Part shown: in pieces, positions 18,196-24,176 of the stretch
Position numbering within the stretch: position 1 is the stretch's first letter
How the letters are laid out: every line of letters begins with the position of its first letter
IMG/VR virus record: IMGVR_UViG_3300032163_000913
Coordinates: 1 to 41,408 of that record
Origin: a virus
Length of the DNA stretch: 41,408 bases
Reading direction: 5' to 3' (one strand)
Made by a program: the position numbers and the translations under genes
Notes under the pieces: model-generated
Told to the model about the DNA's origin: nothing
Database searches by the model: none
Seen by the model: the letters and a program-made list of their open reading frames with translations, nothing else

Positions 18196-18203
18196 CGAAA
18201 CGC

Positions 18204-18233
18204 TTGTTGCATCAGTAGAGTGATCGCGATATA
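18204..18233 (+). promoter_or_regulatory. Putative promoter with short leader for the nuclease gene
   Basis: TTGTTG (18204-18209), 18-bp spacer, GATATA (18228-18233), then ATG at 18243, nine bases after the -10. Same geometry as the leaderless promoters. Confidence 0.48.
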
Positions 18234-18242
18234 TCGGCGCCC

Positions 18243-18833
18243 ATGGGTTGGTCGCACGGTAATCGCTGGACACAGGAAATGGTTCGCGTCGCATTGACGG
18301 AGCACGTGGGGAGACTAGGTCGCATGCCGTCGATTGGTGAAATGAGGGCGGCGGGCCAGGGTGCGCTGGCGATGGCCGCTTCGCGTAGCGGTGGGATGCG
18401 AGCCTGGGCGGCCAGGCTTGGCGTTGAGCAGAAGGGCACAGAGACCCATCGAGGCCAGAAGTGGGAGCGCCATGAGGCGGCCTTCTTCTCCTCGATGGGG
18501 CTCTCCGTGGTGCCGCAGACCGCCAAGGCTCCATTCGATCTGCTGGTGAACGGGCATCGAGTCGATGTGAAGTCATCGACGTTCCGGGACTATGGGTATG
18601 TCACCGGGTATCTGTTCAACGGCCTGAAGAACGGATCTGATAGCGACTTCTTCGACTTTGTGTGCGTGGAAGGAGGCTTGGTTCTTCATCGTTTCATCAT
18701 TCCGTCGGCCATTGCCTGTACTCGTTCTTTGACGATCACGCAGAGCAGTATCGACGGCATCGGTAAGCGGAAGAAGTGGTTCGGGTTCAAGGACGCTACG
18801 GCGCTTCTTTTGGAGACACGGGCAGTTCGATGA
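18243..18833 (+). CDS. PD-(D/E)XK nuclease with N-terminal DNA-binding-type domain
   Basis: 196 residues from ATG 18243. The N-terminal ~60 residues (HVGRLGRMPSIGEMRAAG, AASRSGGMRAWAARLGV) resemble the helical repeat associated with some endonucleases, in which a MPS...E...G...GG...WA..LG pattern is typical. The nuclease core follows: WERHEAAFFSSMG, APFDLLVNGHRVDVKSS (Asp and the Asp-Val-Lys of PD-(D/E)XK). It may be a free-standing homing endonuclease (compare the PD-(D/E)XK type of I-Ssp6803I) or a resolvase/repair nuclease. Its own promoter and location next to an intein-bearing helicase favour a selfish or accessory gene. Substrate unknown. Confidence 0.65.
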   Translation: MGWSHGNRWTQEMVRVALTEHVGRLGRMPSIGEMRAAGQGALAMAASRSGGMRAWAARLGVEQKGTETHRGQKWERHEAAFFSSMGLSVVPQTAKAPFDLLVNGHRVDVKSSTFRDYGYVTGYLFNGLKNGSDSDFFDFVCVEGGLVLHRFIIPSAIACTRSLTITQSSIDGIGKRKKWFGFKDATALLLETRAVR

Positions 18834-19024
18834 AGCTCTGGATAACAACTCTGCTGCGATGGCGGCGAAGGTTCGCCCACGACCGGCTCGGCTGGCCGGT
18901 CGTCACGCCAGGTCAGGCGATCGGGTTCGACGGGTGTTCGCACATGACGAGATGCGAGGAGTGCAGCGCCCGCGTGCTGCAAGATAGCAACGGAGATTGG
19001 TTTCACGTGGCGGAGCAATGCTAG
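18830..19024 (+). CDS. Small Cys-containing hypothetical protein
   Basis: 64 residues. ATG 18830 overlaps the stop of the nuclease gene (ATGA), so the two are coupled. The basic N-terminus (KLWITTLLRWRRRFAHDR) is followed by a possible zinc site: HMTRCEECSARV (H, C-x2-C) and HVAEQC at the very end (H-x4-C). Such a C2H/C2HC layout often binds DNA. No family recognised. A structured 104-base gap follows. Confidence 0.6.
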   Translation: MKLWITTLLRWRRRFAHDRLGWPVVTPGQAIGFDGCSHMTRCEECSARVLQDSNGDWFHVAEQC

Positions 19025-19127: not shown

Positions 19128-21956
19128 ATGAGGGTTCGCGTGTCCGGGCTGGTCTGGGTGCCGAAGGCAGAGCTGGGAAACAGCCTGGCCCAGCTCAAGA
19201 AGGCGCTGACCATCGTGCCGAGAAAGTCGGCGTACGCGGATAGCGAGCCGCCGACGCCGGTACCGTGCTGGGCGGAGACGCTCGATGAGTTCGGGTTGCC
19301 GAGGGACTACTTTTTTGGGAGCGCCAAACAGCAGCACGACATCGTTTGGGAGCTGTCCGAGGGCAGCCCAATATCGATCCAAAGCAACCTGCGACAGACG
19401 GGCGACTACGCCGAGCAGGCGCTCGCGCTGGATACGCTGGAGGCATGGTTTCGCGGCTTCGATACCGCGGCCGATCCTATTTCCGCCGGTCTGCATCTTG
19501 GGGCCATCCTCCAGGCTGATCCTGGATTCGGAAAGACCGCGTCCGCCCTGGAGCTGGCGCGCAGGCTCGGGCGCACGACCCTGATCATCGTCCACAAGGA
19601 GTTCTTGCTGACGCAGTGGCAGCGACGCATCGAAGCGTTCTTTCCGGACGCCAAGATCGGAATCGTGCGAGAGGACGTGTGCGACTTCGAGGGCAAGGAC
19701 ATCGTGCTGGCGATGGTGCAGTCGCTGGCGCTCGAAGGGGCAGATGGCAAGCAGCGGTATCCGCTGGCGTTATACAGGCACTTCGGGCTGATCGTGATCG
19801 ATGAGTGCTTCGTTGCCGGAACCATGGTCGAGACGCCCGGTGGGCCACGGCCGATAGAGGGCATTCGGCCAGGAGACGCTGTCCTAAACGCCGTGGGGCT
19901 AGGTAGCGTTGACCGGGTTACGACCAAGCGCGTCGCCGTGGACCGGCTTGTCGTGGTTCGCGTTGACGACGGCAGCGAGTTCGTTTGCACGGATGAGCAT
20001 CCGTGGCTGACCCCGCACGGGTGGACGAAGGCCGCAGAGCTTACTCCTGGGGACGCGCTCGTTGCATTCTCCGAGAGCACTGATACCATGTCAAGACATG
20101 GATATAGCATGCGAGGTGTGCGGGACCCCTTGCAACCCGAGGCTCGACCGGCGTCCAAGGTTCTGCTCGCAGCGATGCTGCGGGTTGGCCAAGGCGAAGC
20201 GGCAGAGGCCATGCGAGGCGTGCGGTCAAGAGGTTGCGAGGAAGGGGAATCGGTTCTGTTCCGTTGTCTGTCAGAGGAGCTGTCACCAGCGGTTCATGGG
20301 AACGCCGGAGATGCGAGCGCGGATGTCAGAGAACGCGAGGCGCCAGCACGCGAAAGACCCAGGTCTTGCAAGGAGATCGTCGGAGCGCATGGTCACGCAG
20401 AACCCAATGGCAGATCAGGCGACCAGGAGGCTTGTGTCGAGCAAGCTCAAGGCAATGAAGTATCGCCCGGTGAGCCGAGGCGGGAACGGGCGCGGTCTTA
20501 CGGTTCCTCAGCAAGCTCTGTTGGAGGCGCTGGGCCACGGCTGGGCGCCGGAACTGGCGGTTCCAACCAAGATGTCGCGGGGGAGCGGCTATCCGACGTC
20601 CTACAGGCTGGATTTGGGGAACACGGCGCTGAGACTCGGGATCGAGGTGGACGGGCCCTCGCACGACAGCCCGAGAGCGAGAGCGAAGGATGGGAAAAAG
20701 AGCGCACTGCTGGCCACGCTCGGGTGGCGAGTGTTGCGCGTGCGGAACGAAGCGATCTTGAGCGACGCGGCATCCGCGTTGGCGACGATTCGCGCGTGGA
20801 TGTCTTCAACCTGAGCGTCTCCGGTCATCCGTCGTATGTGTTGGCGAATGGCTTGGTGGTGCACAACTGTCACCGCATCGGCGCTCTCACGTGGAGCCAG
20901 GTGCCGAAGATGTTCTCGGCGAAGTGGTTGCTCGGGCTGACCGCGACGCCGAGGCGCCGAGATGGGGCGGACAAGGTGTTCTGGTGGAACATCGGCCAGA
21001 TCCGGTACGCGGCCAAGACCAAGCGGCCGATCCTCGGCGTGCGCATGGTGATGGCGAACGTGTCGGGCCCGGACATCCTGCGCAGGGACGTCTCGCCGAG
21101 CATTATCGTCAACGTCCTGGCCAAGCTGTCTGGGCGTAACCGGATCATTGTGCAGGAGATCATCGGGGCGCTGAAGTCGCCGTCCGGGCGCAAGATCATG
21201 GTGCTGAGCGAGCGGCTTGAGCACCTCCGGGAGCTGGACTCCTTGCTGCGAAAGGAAGCGGACAGGGCCGGGATCGAGGTCTCAACCGGGTTCTATACGG
21301 GCGAGTGGTTCACCGGCGATCGCAGCGAGAAGCTCGCGCAAGGCCATTGGGACATGAGCAACGGCGGTCGCAAGAAGGCGGAGGCGGCAATCTACACGTC
21401 TCTCTCCAGGCGGAAGCTGGAGCCGGGCGAGGACAGGGCCGTGGACAAGGATCAGGACGGGACGAAAGTGATCGTCTTCAACGGCGGCGAGCGGATACCG
21501 CTGAGCGATTTGCCCGAGCAGGCGCTGTACTCCCTCGCGCGCAGCTATGACATCAAGCAGAAGGTGACCGAGAAGAAGCGCCGCAGGACCGAGGAGGAGC
21601 TGGCCGAGGCCGAGCGAGCCCGCGTGATCTGGGCCACGTATCAGATGACTTCTGAAGGCATCGACATCCCGGCGGTGGACACGATCGGGTTCGCGACTCC
21701 AATCAGCGACGTCGAGCAGTCATACGGCCGCGGTCGGCGCGTCTGTGTGCCCGTGGCGCACGGCGGCGACAAGACGCCGGAGGCATGTACGCGACTGTGT
21801 TCTTGGCGTGCGGCGACCTGCGTCGGCAAGCCGGTGGGACTGGCGTTTGATGTGGTAGACGTACAAGTCCCACTCGCGACCAGGCGCAGCAAGTACCGGC
21901 GGGAGTTCTACGAGAGCGTAGGGGCTCGCGTCGTAGATATTGACACTCGCAAATAA
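19128..21956 (+). CDS. UvsW-like superfamily 2 helicase interrupted by an intein
   Basis: 942 residues from ATG 19128; about 588 after removal of the intein (227-580). Walker A is ADPGFGKTASAL (about 130-141); motif Ia is LIIVHKEFLLTQW. Motif II is VIDE/CHRIG, split by the intein exactly between Glu226 and Cys581 of the DECH box. Motif III is LGLTATPRRRDG, and motif VI QSYGRGRRVC near the end. Known role of UvsW-type helicases: branch migration, fork regression and control of recombination-dependent replication. The frame is continuously open through the intein and the overlapping endonuclease gene. It is inactive until spliced, since the DECH box is broken. Confidence 0.88.
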   Translation: MRVRVSGLVWVPKAELGNSLAQLKKALTIVPRKSAYADSEPPTPVPCWAETLDEFGLPRDYFFGSAKQQHDIVWELSEGSPISIQSNLRQTGDYAEQALALDTLEAWFRGFDTAADPISAGLHLGAILQADPGFGKTASALELARRLGRTTLIIVHKEFLLTQWQRRIEAFFPDAKIGIVREDVCDFEGKDIVLAMVQSLALEGADGKQRYPLALYRHFGLIVIDECFVAGTMVETPGGPRPIEGIRPGDAVLNAVGLGSVDRVTTKRVAVDRLVVVRVDDGSEFVCTDEHPWLTPHGWTKAAELTPGDALVAFSESTDTMSRHGYSMRGVRDPLQPEARPASKVLLAAMLRVGQGEAAEAMRGVRSRGCEEGESVLFRCLSEELSPAVHGNAGDASADVREREAPARERPRSCKEIVGAHGHAEPNGRSGDQEACVEQAQGNEVSPGEPRRERARSYGSSASSVGGAGPRLGAGTGGSNQDVAGERLSDVLQAGFGEHGAETRDRGGRALARQPESESEGWEKERTAGHARVASVARAERSDLERRGIRVGDDSRVDVFNLSVSGHPSYVLANGLVVHNCHRIGALTWSQVPKMFSAKWLLGLTATPRRRDGADKVFWWNIGQIRYAAKTKRPILGVRMVMANVSGPDILRRDVSPSIIVNVLAKLSGRNRIIVQEIIGALKSPSGRKIMVLSERLEHLRELDSLLRKEADRAGIEVSTGFYTGEWFTGDRSEKLAQGHWDMSNGGRKKAEAAIYTSLSRRKLEPGEDRAVDKDQDGTKVIVFNGGERIPLSDLPEQALYSLARSYDIKQKVTEKKRRRTEEELAEAERARVIWATYQMTSEGIDIPAVDTIGFATPISDVEQSYGRGRRVCVPVAHGGDKTPEACTRLCSWRAATCVGKPVGLAFDVVDVQVPLATRRSKYRREFYESVGARVVDIDTRK
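20062..20089 (+). promoter_or_regulatory. Putative promoter inside the intein for the nested endonuclease
   Basis: TTGCAT (20062-20067), 16-bp spacer, TACCAT (20084-20089), then ATG at 20098 eight bases later. The -35-to-start distance (36) and short leader match the TTGACA-type promoters at 1626, 2201 and 11251. It overlaps codons at the end of the intein N-terminal half. Confidence 0.5.
20098..20814 (+). CDS. Zinc-finger Vsr/DUF559-like homing endonuclease nested in intein
   Basis: 238 residues from ATG 20098, in the +1 frame relative to the intein that contains it. Two Cys clusters open it (CEVCGTPC...FCSQRCC and CEACGQEV...FCSVVC). A NUMOD-like helical linker follows (MGTPEMRARMSENARRQ, then NPMADQATRR). 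Next come GGNGRGLTVPQQALLEALG and GSGYPTSYRLDLGN, and the nuclease core IEVDGPSH (182-189) with DGKKSALL and LGWRVLRVRN (208-217). This is the Vsr/DUF559-type PD-(D/E)XK core seen in phage homing endonucleases. Third codon positions are G/C-rich in this frame, not in the intein frame. The stop TGA lies inside the intein's final splicing block. Predicted role: homing of the intein. Confidence 0.85.
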   Translation: MDIACEVCGTPCNPRLDRRPRFCSQRCCGLAKAKRQRPCEACGQEVARKGNRFCSVVCQRSCHQRFMGTPEMRARMSENARRQHAKDPGLARRSSERMVTQNPMADQATRRLVSSKLKAMKYRPVSRGGNGRGLTVPQQALLEALGHGWAPELAVPTKMSRGSGYPTSYRLDLGNTALRLGIEVDGPSHDSPRARAKDGKKSALLATLGWRVLRVRNEAILSDAASALATIRAWMSST

Positions 21957-22904: not shown

Positions 22905-24176
22905 ATGACGGCAACAAAGCTCACGCAGGTAGCCAAGACGCTACAGGCCAAGTATGGCAGCGGCGCCATTGGCCGTGGCGACACAACTCCATCCGAGGAT
23001 CGCAGAATGACCACCGGGTCACTGCGGCTCGACGCAGTGCTGGGCGGCGGCATGCGGATCGGATGGGTGACATCGTTCTACGGGGAGAAGTCCGGCGGCA
23101 AGAGTACGACCGCCATCCGCTGCATGGGGATCGCGCAGAACCATTGCCGCAACTGTCTGCGGCCGGTCAAGGACGTGCAGGCGGCTCCGCCAGAAGGGGT
23201 CGCGCCGGAGGACGCCAAGACAGCTCGGTGGGGCGCGACCGGAACGTGTACTTGCTATGCCGAGGGGCTCTACCAGCCGGACCCTCCGCCAAAGGAAACC
23301 GGTGAGTCGCCCAAGGTTTACCGCGAACGTGTCGAAGCCTGGATTGAGAAGCTCAAGGGCAACTCCTACGAGGAGATGGTCTGCGCCTGGATCGACATGG
23401 AGCATTCGTTTGACAAGGGGTGGGCGGTCAGGCTCGGTCTCGACACGCGACGCCTGCTCTACGTGAGGCCGGAGTCGGCCGAGGAGTCGCTCGACATCAT
23501 CGCTGCCCTGATTGGCACGATCGAAGTGGACATGCTGTGCATCGACTCGATTGCGAACCTCACTCCGACCAAGGAGCTGACGGACTCGATGGAGCAGTGG
23601 CAGCAAGGTCTCCAAGCGAGGTTGGTCAACAAGGGCATCCGCAAGCTCATCACCGGGTCGTCCTCGGTAGCCAACGCGCATCGGACGATCACACAAATCT
23701 GGATCAACCAGGTGCGTGACAAGATCACGATGTTCGGCGATCCGACCGTGAAGCCTGGCGGCAAGGGCCAGGAGTTTGCAGTTCATGCAGAGGTGAAGTT
23801 CGGCAAGTCCAAGATCGAGATGGACACCGAGCAGTACGGCGCGAAGGACGAGGTCATCAAGATCCCGCGCACGGAGACGTTCTCGTTCAAGTGCACCAAG
23901 AACAGGACGGCCGGGACGAAGGACTCGGAGGGATTCTACATACAGCGCGTGCGAGACACCGATGCCGGGAAGGCTGGCGAGATCGTGGACGGCGAGGAGG
24001 TTTACGCGCTTGCGATGCACTACCTCGTTGATTCGAGCAAGAAGGGCGCTTACCGGCTCGCCGATCGTGAGTACACGAGCCAGAAGGCCATTGCTGTCGA
24101 TCTTCGGGATGACGCCGGTCTTTATTCGGCGGTGCGCGCTGCGCTGCTGGCCAAGCTGATCAAGGGCGCGCGGTGA
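22905..24176 (+). CDS. recA: RecA/UvsX-like recombinase
   Basis: 423 residues from ATG 22905. Walker A is YGEKSGGKSTTAIR (about 58-71); Walker B is DMLCIDSIANLTP (about 210-222). The L2 region and the NQVRDKITMFGDPTVKPGGKGQEF block are standard RecA-type. A Cys-containing insert (CRNCL, then CTCYAEG; about 81-120) lies between the P-loop and Walker B, as in several phage recombinases, and may bind zinc. The C-terminus is a helical domain, shorter than in bacterial RecA. Known role: ATP-dependent strand exchange on single-stranded DNA. The surrounding SSB-like, nuclease and resolvase genes complete a recombination set. Confidence 0.92.
   Translation: MTATKLTQVAKTLQAKYGSGAIGRGDTTPSEDRRMTTGSLRLDAVLGGGMRIGWVTSFYGEKSGGKSTTAIRCMGIAQNHCRNCLRPVKDVQAAPPEGVAPEDAKTARWGATGTCTCYAEGLYQPDPPPKETGESPKVYRERVEAWIEKLKGNSYEEMVCAWIDMEHSFDKGWAVRLGLDTRRLLYVRPESAEESLDIIAALIGTIEVDMLCIDSIANLTPTKELTDSMEQWQQGLQARLVNKGIRKLITGSSSVANAHRTITQIWINQVRDKITMFGDPTVKPGGKGQEFAVHAEVKFGKSKIEMDTEQYGAKDEVIKIPRTETFSFKCTKNRTAGTKDSEGFYIQRVRDTDAGKAGEIVDGEEVYALAMHYLVDSSKKGAYRLADREYTSQKAIAVDLRDDAGLYSAVRAALLAKLIKGAR

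Follow-up and report, generated by a model that had tools for sequence, protein, structure and literature searches.

The window analysed here is the whole 41,408-nucleotide stretch of viral DNA at positions 1 to 41,408 of IMG/VR virus record IMGVR_UViG_3300032163_000913. Our subject is a DNA helicase gene within it that contains an intein, together with a gene for a putative homing endonuclease that overlaps the intein in another reading frame. Inspection of the open reading frame (ORF) and its translation shows that the helicase precursor frame is uninterrupted from 19128 to 21956 and codes for 942 amino acids (aa). The helicase and its intein are arranged as follows.

19128–21956, + strand: helicase precursor ORF (ResIII/phrog_16 DNA helicase) with a contiguous intein, from the ORF and profile matches.
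19806–20867, + strand: intein of 354 aa, C1 to N354, between the E and C of Walker B (DE/C), from profile matches and an intein-free homologue (L075).
19806–20069, + strand: N-terminal splicing module, intein residues 1–88, with block A at C1 and block B at T62..H65, from the structure model and invariant columns.
20070–20708, + strand: intein-frame linker, residues 89–301, predicted to be disordered and spanning most of the endonuclease gene.
20709–20867, + strand: C-terminal splicing module, residues 302–354, ending HN/C, from the structure model and NCBIfam match.

The intein corresponds to helicase residues C227–N580, with junctions DE/C and HN/C. It matches Pfam Hint_2 and Intein_splicing and, in the C-terminal splicing region, NCBIfam intein_Cterm, and all of the residues of a class 1 (Cys1) intein are present (C1, T62 and H65 of block B, and HN/C). 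The homologue L075 reads straight across the insertion point, such that the element is precisely absent from a relative of the host gene. In the structure model residues 1–88 and 302–354 are folded and the stretch 89–301 is disordered, with a predicted local distance difference test score (pLDDT) below 50. The N- and C-terminal modules together are predicted to form a Hint fold, and a structure search with the intein model returned 20 PDB matches at E≤0.001, nearly all of them inteins, with inteins the best. A group I intron around the endonuclease gene was considered and rejected, as nothing in 18800–22100 matches Rfam even at E=1 and the host frame is open throughout.

The endonuclease gene lies in the +1 frame relative to the intein, and has the following features.

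20098–20814, + strand: endonuclease gene, ATG start, 238 aa, from the ORF, DUF559 match and fold prediction.
20062–20064, + strand: alternative endonuclease start, TTG, where several relatives have a start codon, from the start-region comparison.
20008–20010, + strand: TGA closing the endonuclease frame upstream, within the intein, from the frame scan.
20212–20271, + strand: zinc-finger cysteines C39, C42, C54 and C58 of the endonuclease, from the alignment.
20611–20748, + strand: nuclease core, D172 ... E183xD185GxxH189 ... D198 ... GWxVLRxxN217, from invariant columns, DUF559 and an I-Bth0305I-like fold.
20709–20814, + strand: dual-coded segment, holding the end of the nuclease core and the endonuclease C-terminus (+1) and the start of the C-terminal splicing module (frame 0), with the GW motif at 20722.

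The endonuclease contains Pfam DUF559 (E=2.7e-9), and its structure is predicted with a mean pLDDT of 89. The best PDB match of the nuclease domain in Foldseek is the catalytic domain of I-Bth0305I (3R3P; probability 1.00, TM 0.62–0.70 by target), followed among nucleases by 3hrl, PvuRts1I and Vsr (1vsr), and a profile search matches 3R3P at E=5.6e-4; identity to I-Bth0305I is 20%. Residues D172, E183, D185, H189 and D198 are conserved in the family alignment, and on the predicted structure the endonuclease is a zinc finger joined to a Vsr/EDxHD-like fold. With the exception of the shared 3′ end, structure predictions of the same DNA give order in the endonuclease frame and disorder in the intein frame. 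A first-pass annotation, made from the sequence alone, had proposed a contiguous intein with a separate out-of-frame Vsr/DUF559-type endonuclease, and the four profile matches (Hint_2, Intein_splicing, intein_Cterm and DUF559) and two open frames bear this out. It had also described third-position G/C content (GC) as high in the endonuclease frame and mixed in the intein frame, in agreement with the values by codon position (0.58/0.57/0.77 in the endonuclease frame and 0.77/0.58/0.57 in the intein frame). In two independent relatives from IMG/VR, with protein identities of 98% and 92%, both frames are open and the intein has an equal length and no indels.

To place this locus in a family, loci were gathered by endonuclease similarity alone, and each was then examined for the relative frames of its N-module, C-module and endonuclease. 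Loci were taken as nonredundant if they have <30% of 12-mers in common over the endonuclease, giving at least 163, with all counts being among the matches listed. In 152 of these 163 the endonuclease is at +1, both splicing modules are in one frame, and the intein frame has no stop; a first set of 54 loci agrees with this result. The 152 loci span a GC of 28–70%, and their splicing residues are well kept (C1 in 149/152, TxxH in 151/152, and HN or SN with +1 C/S in 150). Insertion is nearly always at Walker B, in genes that resemble by sequence only helicases, Snf2-like proteins, clamp-loader-like ATPases and terminase-like proteins, and the family occurs in both viral and bacterial loci. None of the remaining 11 loci is at +2; two have intein-frame stops (L052 and L163) and eight have no detectable N module, one of which (L087) is cut by a contig edge and is also open. 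The last, L072 (3147–4205), is a Nitrosotalea archaeon protein (radical-SAM-like by eye) in which a distant endonuclease relative (22% identical) is in frame with the intein; no in-frame endonuclease, and no stop in the intein frame, was found in close relatives of the window. A tblastn search with the endonuclease against annotated phages matched 40 genomes (Vibrio, Corynebacterium and Pseudomonas), and among the rows listed the overlying coding sequence is always annotated as a helicase, P-loop NTPase, coil-containing or hypothetical protein. The cultured-phage representatives that were checked have a +1 endonuclease in a contiguous intein at the same site, with the endonuclease unannotated. 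A phage search using the intein frame as query gave no matches, and there was no match in the plasmid collection searched.

Two tests bear on why the intein frame is open. When each endonuclease is re-encoded using the codon preferences of the gene that hosts it, about 1720 intein-frame stops are expected in the 152 nonredundant loci and none is observed; for the window, using helicase codon usage, 5.7 are expected and none is observed, with none of 400 resamplings being open. The second is a within-gene test that is free of a codon model, in which a T-ending codon before AA, AG or GA would make an intein-frame stop. Among pyrimidine-ending codons in this context T is used in 0 of 2212 cases (152 loci), compared with 60% before other codons, and because of this difference we attribute the openness of the intein frame to selection. 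Free-standing relatives of the endonuclease use T in 81% of cases before AA, AG or GA and 72% elsewhere, and contain 140 intein-frame stops where 118 are expected; since they carry the full load of stops, the constraint exists only where there is an intein. The same considerations apply to the phase. With the endonuclease in +1, synonymous changes are enough by themselves to free the intein frame of stops for all 57 endonucleases; with the other shift, intein-frame stops cannot be avoided for 51 of the 57. That stops can be removed synonymously (T to C) in +1 and not in +2 is a sufficient reason, besides common descent, for why +2 is never seen.

Near the 3′ end the two proteins are coupled more closely. 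The endonuclease core ends with the conserved motif GWxVLRFxN (G 100%, W 99%, R 99%, N 100%), and the same bases read in the intein frame encode RV[DE]SVEV, the first strand of the C-terminal splicing module. Codon choice at the conserved endonuclease residues favours those codons that yield the intein residue: the Gly of GW is GGG in 125 of 146 (86%) compared with 33% of other endonuclease Gly (p=4e-37), the Arg is AGR in 81% compared with 38% elsewhere in the endonuclease (p=2e-24), and the Leu is xTG in 84% compared with 44% (p=2e-19). The mini-intein of Vibrio phage K389, which is at the same site and lacks the endonuclease, has a comparable strand (QRVKSARYV), and the strand thus belongs to the intein. 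To judge from these codon patterns, both proteins are under selection on the shared bases in this segment. The intein frame here had been regarded as a passive linker, which fits its middle part; from about 20709, the intein frame again encodes native intein structure, on bases that also code for the last part of the nuclease core.

Closely related genomes with and without the element form an allelic series. One example is the pair of Corynebacterium glutamicum phages phi673, which carries it, and phi674, which does not and has DE/V in place of DE/C, with flanks that are 99% identical. Seven of the 16 differences in the C-extein fall in the 78 nt next to the junction (binomial p=3e-5, or p=0.006 without the +1 codon), and this clustering at the C-side junction is as expected of co-conversion. 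CP-T1 and VchM-138 are a second pair, with the intein absent from VchM-138. Among related Vibrio phages a single site is empty (234P10), occupied by a mini-intein (K389 and K459) or by a full intein (K391 and 1.194.O). The mini-inteins at this helicase site (L236 in K389 and L238 in K459) are endonuclease-free and about 150 aa long. Their last 42 nt are 95–97% identical to those of the K391 full intein, which suggests recombination in the C block. The series and the junction-clustered differences, as read from the sequences, are consistent with a homing cycle.

L052/L053 and L163 depart from the common layout by the presence of stops. L052/L053 (3017–3991) is split, with the N- and C-intein in the same phase and the endonuclease still at +1 and still with GGG-TGG at the GW motif. 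There are 35 stops between the intein halves of L052 (27 TAA, 4 TGA and 4 TAG); recoded stop codons were considered as the cause and rejected, as all three stop codons occur, and L052 is a split intein. In L163 (3167–4336), a clamp-loader-like gene, the otherwise open intein frame has one TAA, which would be either a nascent split or a sequencing error. A departure of another kind is L048 (3468–4600), a free-standing relative. The helicase immediately downstream of it has a Walker B that is apparently frame-shifted exactly at the intein position, possibly a scar of intein loss or an assembly error. Split inteins can, on this sequence comparison, be derived from a dual-coding intein. The suggestion that the element is an intermediate between contiguous and split inteins holds for this minority (L052/L053, with stops and the phase kept, and L163, with its single stop).

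The interpretation that we favour, and consider very probable from the sequence comparisons, is that the element is a stable, phase-locked, dual-coding mobile intein with its endonuclease made by internal initiation. The first-pass annotation had offered a stable overlapping selfish element as one possibility, and this is strongly supported by the shared +1 phase and open intein frame of the 152 loci. Translation in the helicase frame would give a contiguous precursor, as its sequence indicates, in which the splicing modules are modelled to come together as a Hint domain, with a disordered linker of ~213 residues looped out. The intein would then excise itself and restore the helicase Walker B, as the intact catalytic residues and the intein-free alleles suggest. 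Initiation at an internal start codon in the +1 frame would produce a free zinc-finger Vsr/EDxHD-like homing endonuclease; a start codon and an enriched Shine-Dalgarno motif across the family point to such initiation. From its homology and the allelic series, the endonuclease would cut intein-less Walker B alleles, with the element copied in by recombination. Selection at synonymous sites of the endonuclease keeps the intein frame free of stops, with the 3′ bases selected for both proteins. The phase is plausibly fixed both by the synonymous T-to-C removal of stops, available in +1 and not in +2, and by the register-locking dual-coded 3′ segment. Some lineages would have shed the constraint by splitting of the intein or release of the endonuclease.

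Several observations weigh against this interpretation, some of them specific to the copy in the window. No Shine-Dalgarno motif was found before the ATG at 20098, and the start is uncertain, with the TTG at 20062 being the alternative. The profile alignment to 3R3P is imperfect, with N and W at two catalytic positions and the D and H of E-x-D-G-x-x-H absent. The tree is poorly resolved at depth, and a single origin of the +1 layout could not be shown. Finally, the ratio of nonsynonymous to synonymous changes per site (pN/pS) is ~0.56–0.68 in the endonuclease when the window is compared with its two nearest relatives, from few changes, indicating little purifying selection. Comparison of pN/pS in both frames had only three informative pairs with conflicting trends, and the stop-codon and codon-choice tests were used in its place. 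On the pN/pS values, the window's own endonuclease may be past its active phase, although its catalytic residues are intact. One alternative is that in the window phage the overlapping endonuclease is a remnant in decay, with the intein competent for splicing and homing inactive. The pN/pS values, with many second-position changes, and the missing Shine-Dalgarno motif speak for a remnant. We nonetheless regard this as unlikely, as all three copies have a full-length ORF, every family-invariant residue and cysteine is intact, and the confidence of the fold prediction is high; nor would a remnant in the window conflict with the explanation for the family.

A second alternative is that ribosomes leave the frame of the N-terminal splicing module by a programmed frameshift and produce a fusion of the N-extein, the N-terminal intein part (IntN) and the endonuclease, with no internal initiation. 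The lack of a Shine-Dalgarno motif at the window ATG would accommodate this, as would the many loci in which the endonuclease frame is open some way upstream of the ATG (median 45 nt). However, an upstream in-frame stop inside the intein closes the endonuclease frame in 152 of 152 loci, lies ≤30 nt from the ATG in 56 of 144, and in some (L060) is directly before it. Taking the first in-frame ATG as the start proved unreliable, and we took instead the ATG nearest the zinc cysteines; such an ATG precedes the cysteines in 144 of the 152 loci, and 34% of these have a Shine-Dalgarno motif compared with 8.1% of the ATGs that stand out of frame in these inteins (p=1.3e-15), neither of which is expected from frameshifting. 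In several phages the Shine-Dalgarno sequence GAGG is supplied by the intein codons GAY-GAG-GTN (Asp-Glu-Val). No common slippery site was seen by eye in the start regions, a systematic search not having been made, and frameshifting seems quite improbable. The dedicated endonuclease promoter suggested in the first-pass annotation is not upheld, as a promoter-consensus scan gave no + strand site there.

It is very improbable that the intein frame is open merely by chance or codon bias in GC-rich DNA, with the real product being a split intein and a free-standing endonuclease. Stops are indeed rarer at high GC, and the split relatives L052/L053 exist, but the frame is equally open in genomes of GC <0.45 (28–45%), where T is used in 0 of 706 cases before AA, AG or GA and 78% otherwise, and both free-standing and split relatives carry stops at or above expectation. 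That compensating sequencing errors or recent indels shifted an endonuclease from the textbook in-frame arrangement, also seen in the distant archaeal L072, can be dismissed: the phase, with codon-level selection for it, recurs across the 152 nonredundant loci, and it is found in cultured phages that were sequenced independently.

Two features near the helicase gene are also of note. A RecA-family gene is downstream, at 22905–24176 (Pfam RecA, E=1e-39), and about 660 bp at 18196–18855 is replaced by ~40 nt in a close relative (L002). This segment contains an ORF at 18243–18833 (196 aa, '...VDVKSSTF...') that is PD-(D/E)XK-like by eye and gave no match in Pfam, and is possibly a free-standing mobile nuclease gene beside the helicase.

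Inteins are usually described with the endonuclease in frame or, if split, beside the intein. Bifunctional inteins with in-frame LAGLIDADG or HNH domains share with this element N- and C-splicing modules that flank a homing endonuclease, and insertion in a conserved active-site motif; the window endonuclease differs in being a separate +1 protein, with the intein frame forming a disordered linker rather than a nuclease domain. The fractured genes of Dassa et al. in 2009 are reportedly split inteins whose two halves flank a free-standing gene for a Vsr-like endonuclease. They share with the element a Vsr/EDxHD-type endonuclease between intein halves and a location in phage DNA-metabolism genes, and differ in that the host gene and intein of the window are one unbroken ORF, with the endonuclease overlapping and splicing predicted in cis. 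Only L052/L053, with its host gene in two halves, resembles the fractured type. I-Bth0305I, the EDxHD homing endonuclease that is the best structural match (PDB 3R3P), is intron-encoded, unlike the window endonuclease. ShiLan-type elements in phage methylases have an out-of-frame HNH endonuclease in the third frame, with no splicing domain and no detectable ribosome-binding site (Arsenault, Gosselin & Gogarten 2025, PMC11855218). They are similar in that an endonuclease is hidden out of frame in an open, stop-free host frame (PMC11855218), and differ in that the window has a bona fide intein and a DUF559/EDxHD-like nuclease at +1, with a start signal in many of the family loci. Where that paper refers to overlapping frames in actinobacteriophages it cites Gosselin et al. 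2025 (bioRxiv 2025.01.02.630785), a preprint on non-canonically built inteins of actinobacteriophages, and Gorbalenya 1998, 'Non-canonical inteins' (PMC147447); related cases, such as inteins whose endonuclease is out of frame, may be described there.

With less assurance than for the element itself, we think it reasonably likely that these loci represent a large unrecognised class of obligately dual-coding mobile inteins in phages and some bacterial contigs, with a fixed +1 phase, amino-acid selection in two frames at the 3′ end, and the capacity to give rise to natural split inteins when use of the common frame is given up. The endonuclease gene is unannotated in the cultured phages checked, so gene callers miss such genes, and the nearly identical phi673 and phi674 are a pair suited to a direct test of homing. 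In this family two unrelated proteins evolve on one set of bases, a naturally occurring instance that is open to testing and whose phase has a simple reason. It also supplies a concrete path by which contiguous inteins could become split. Overprinting would let a widespread family of mobile elements reconcile splicing in cis with production of a free endonuclease.

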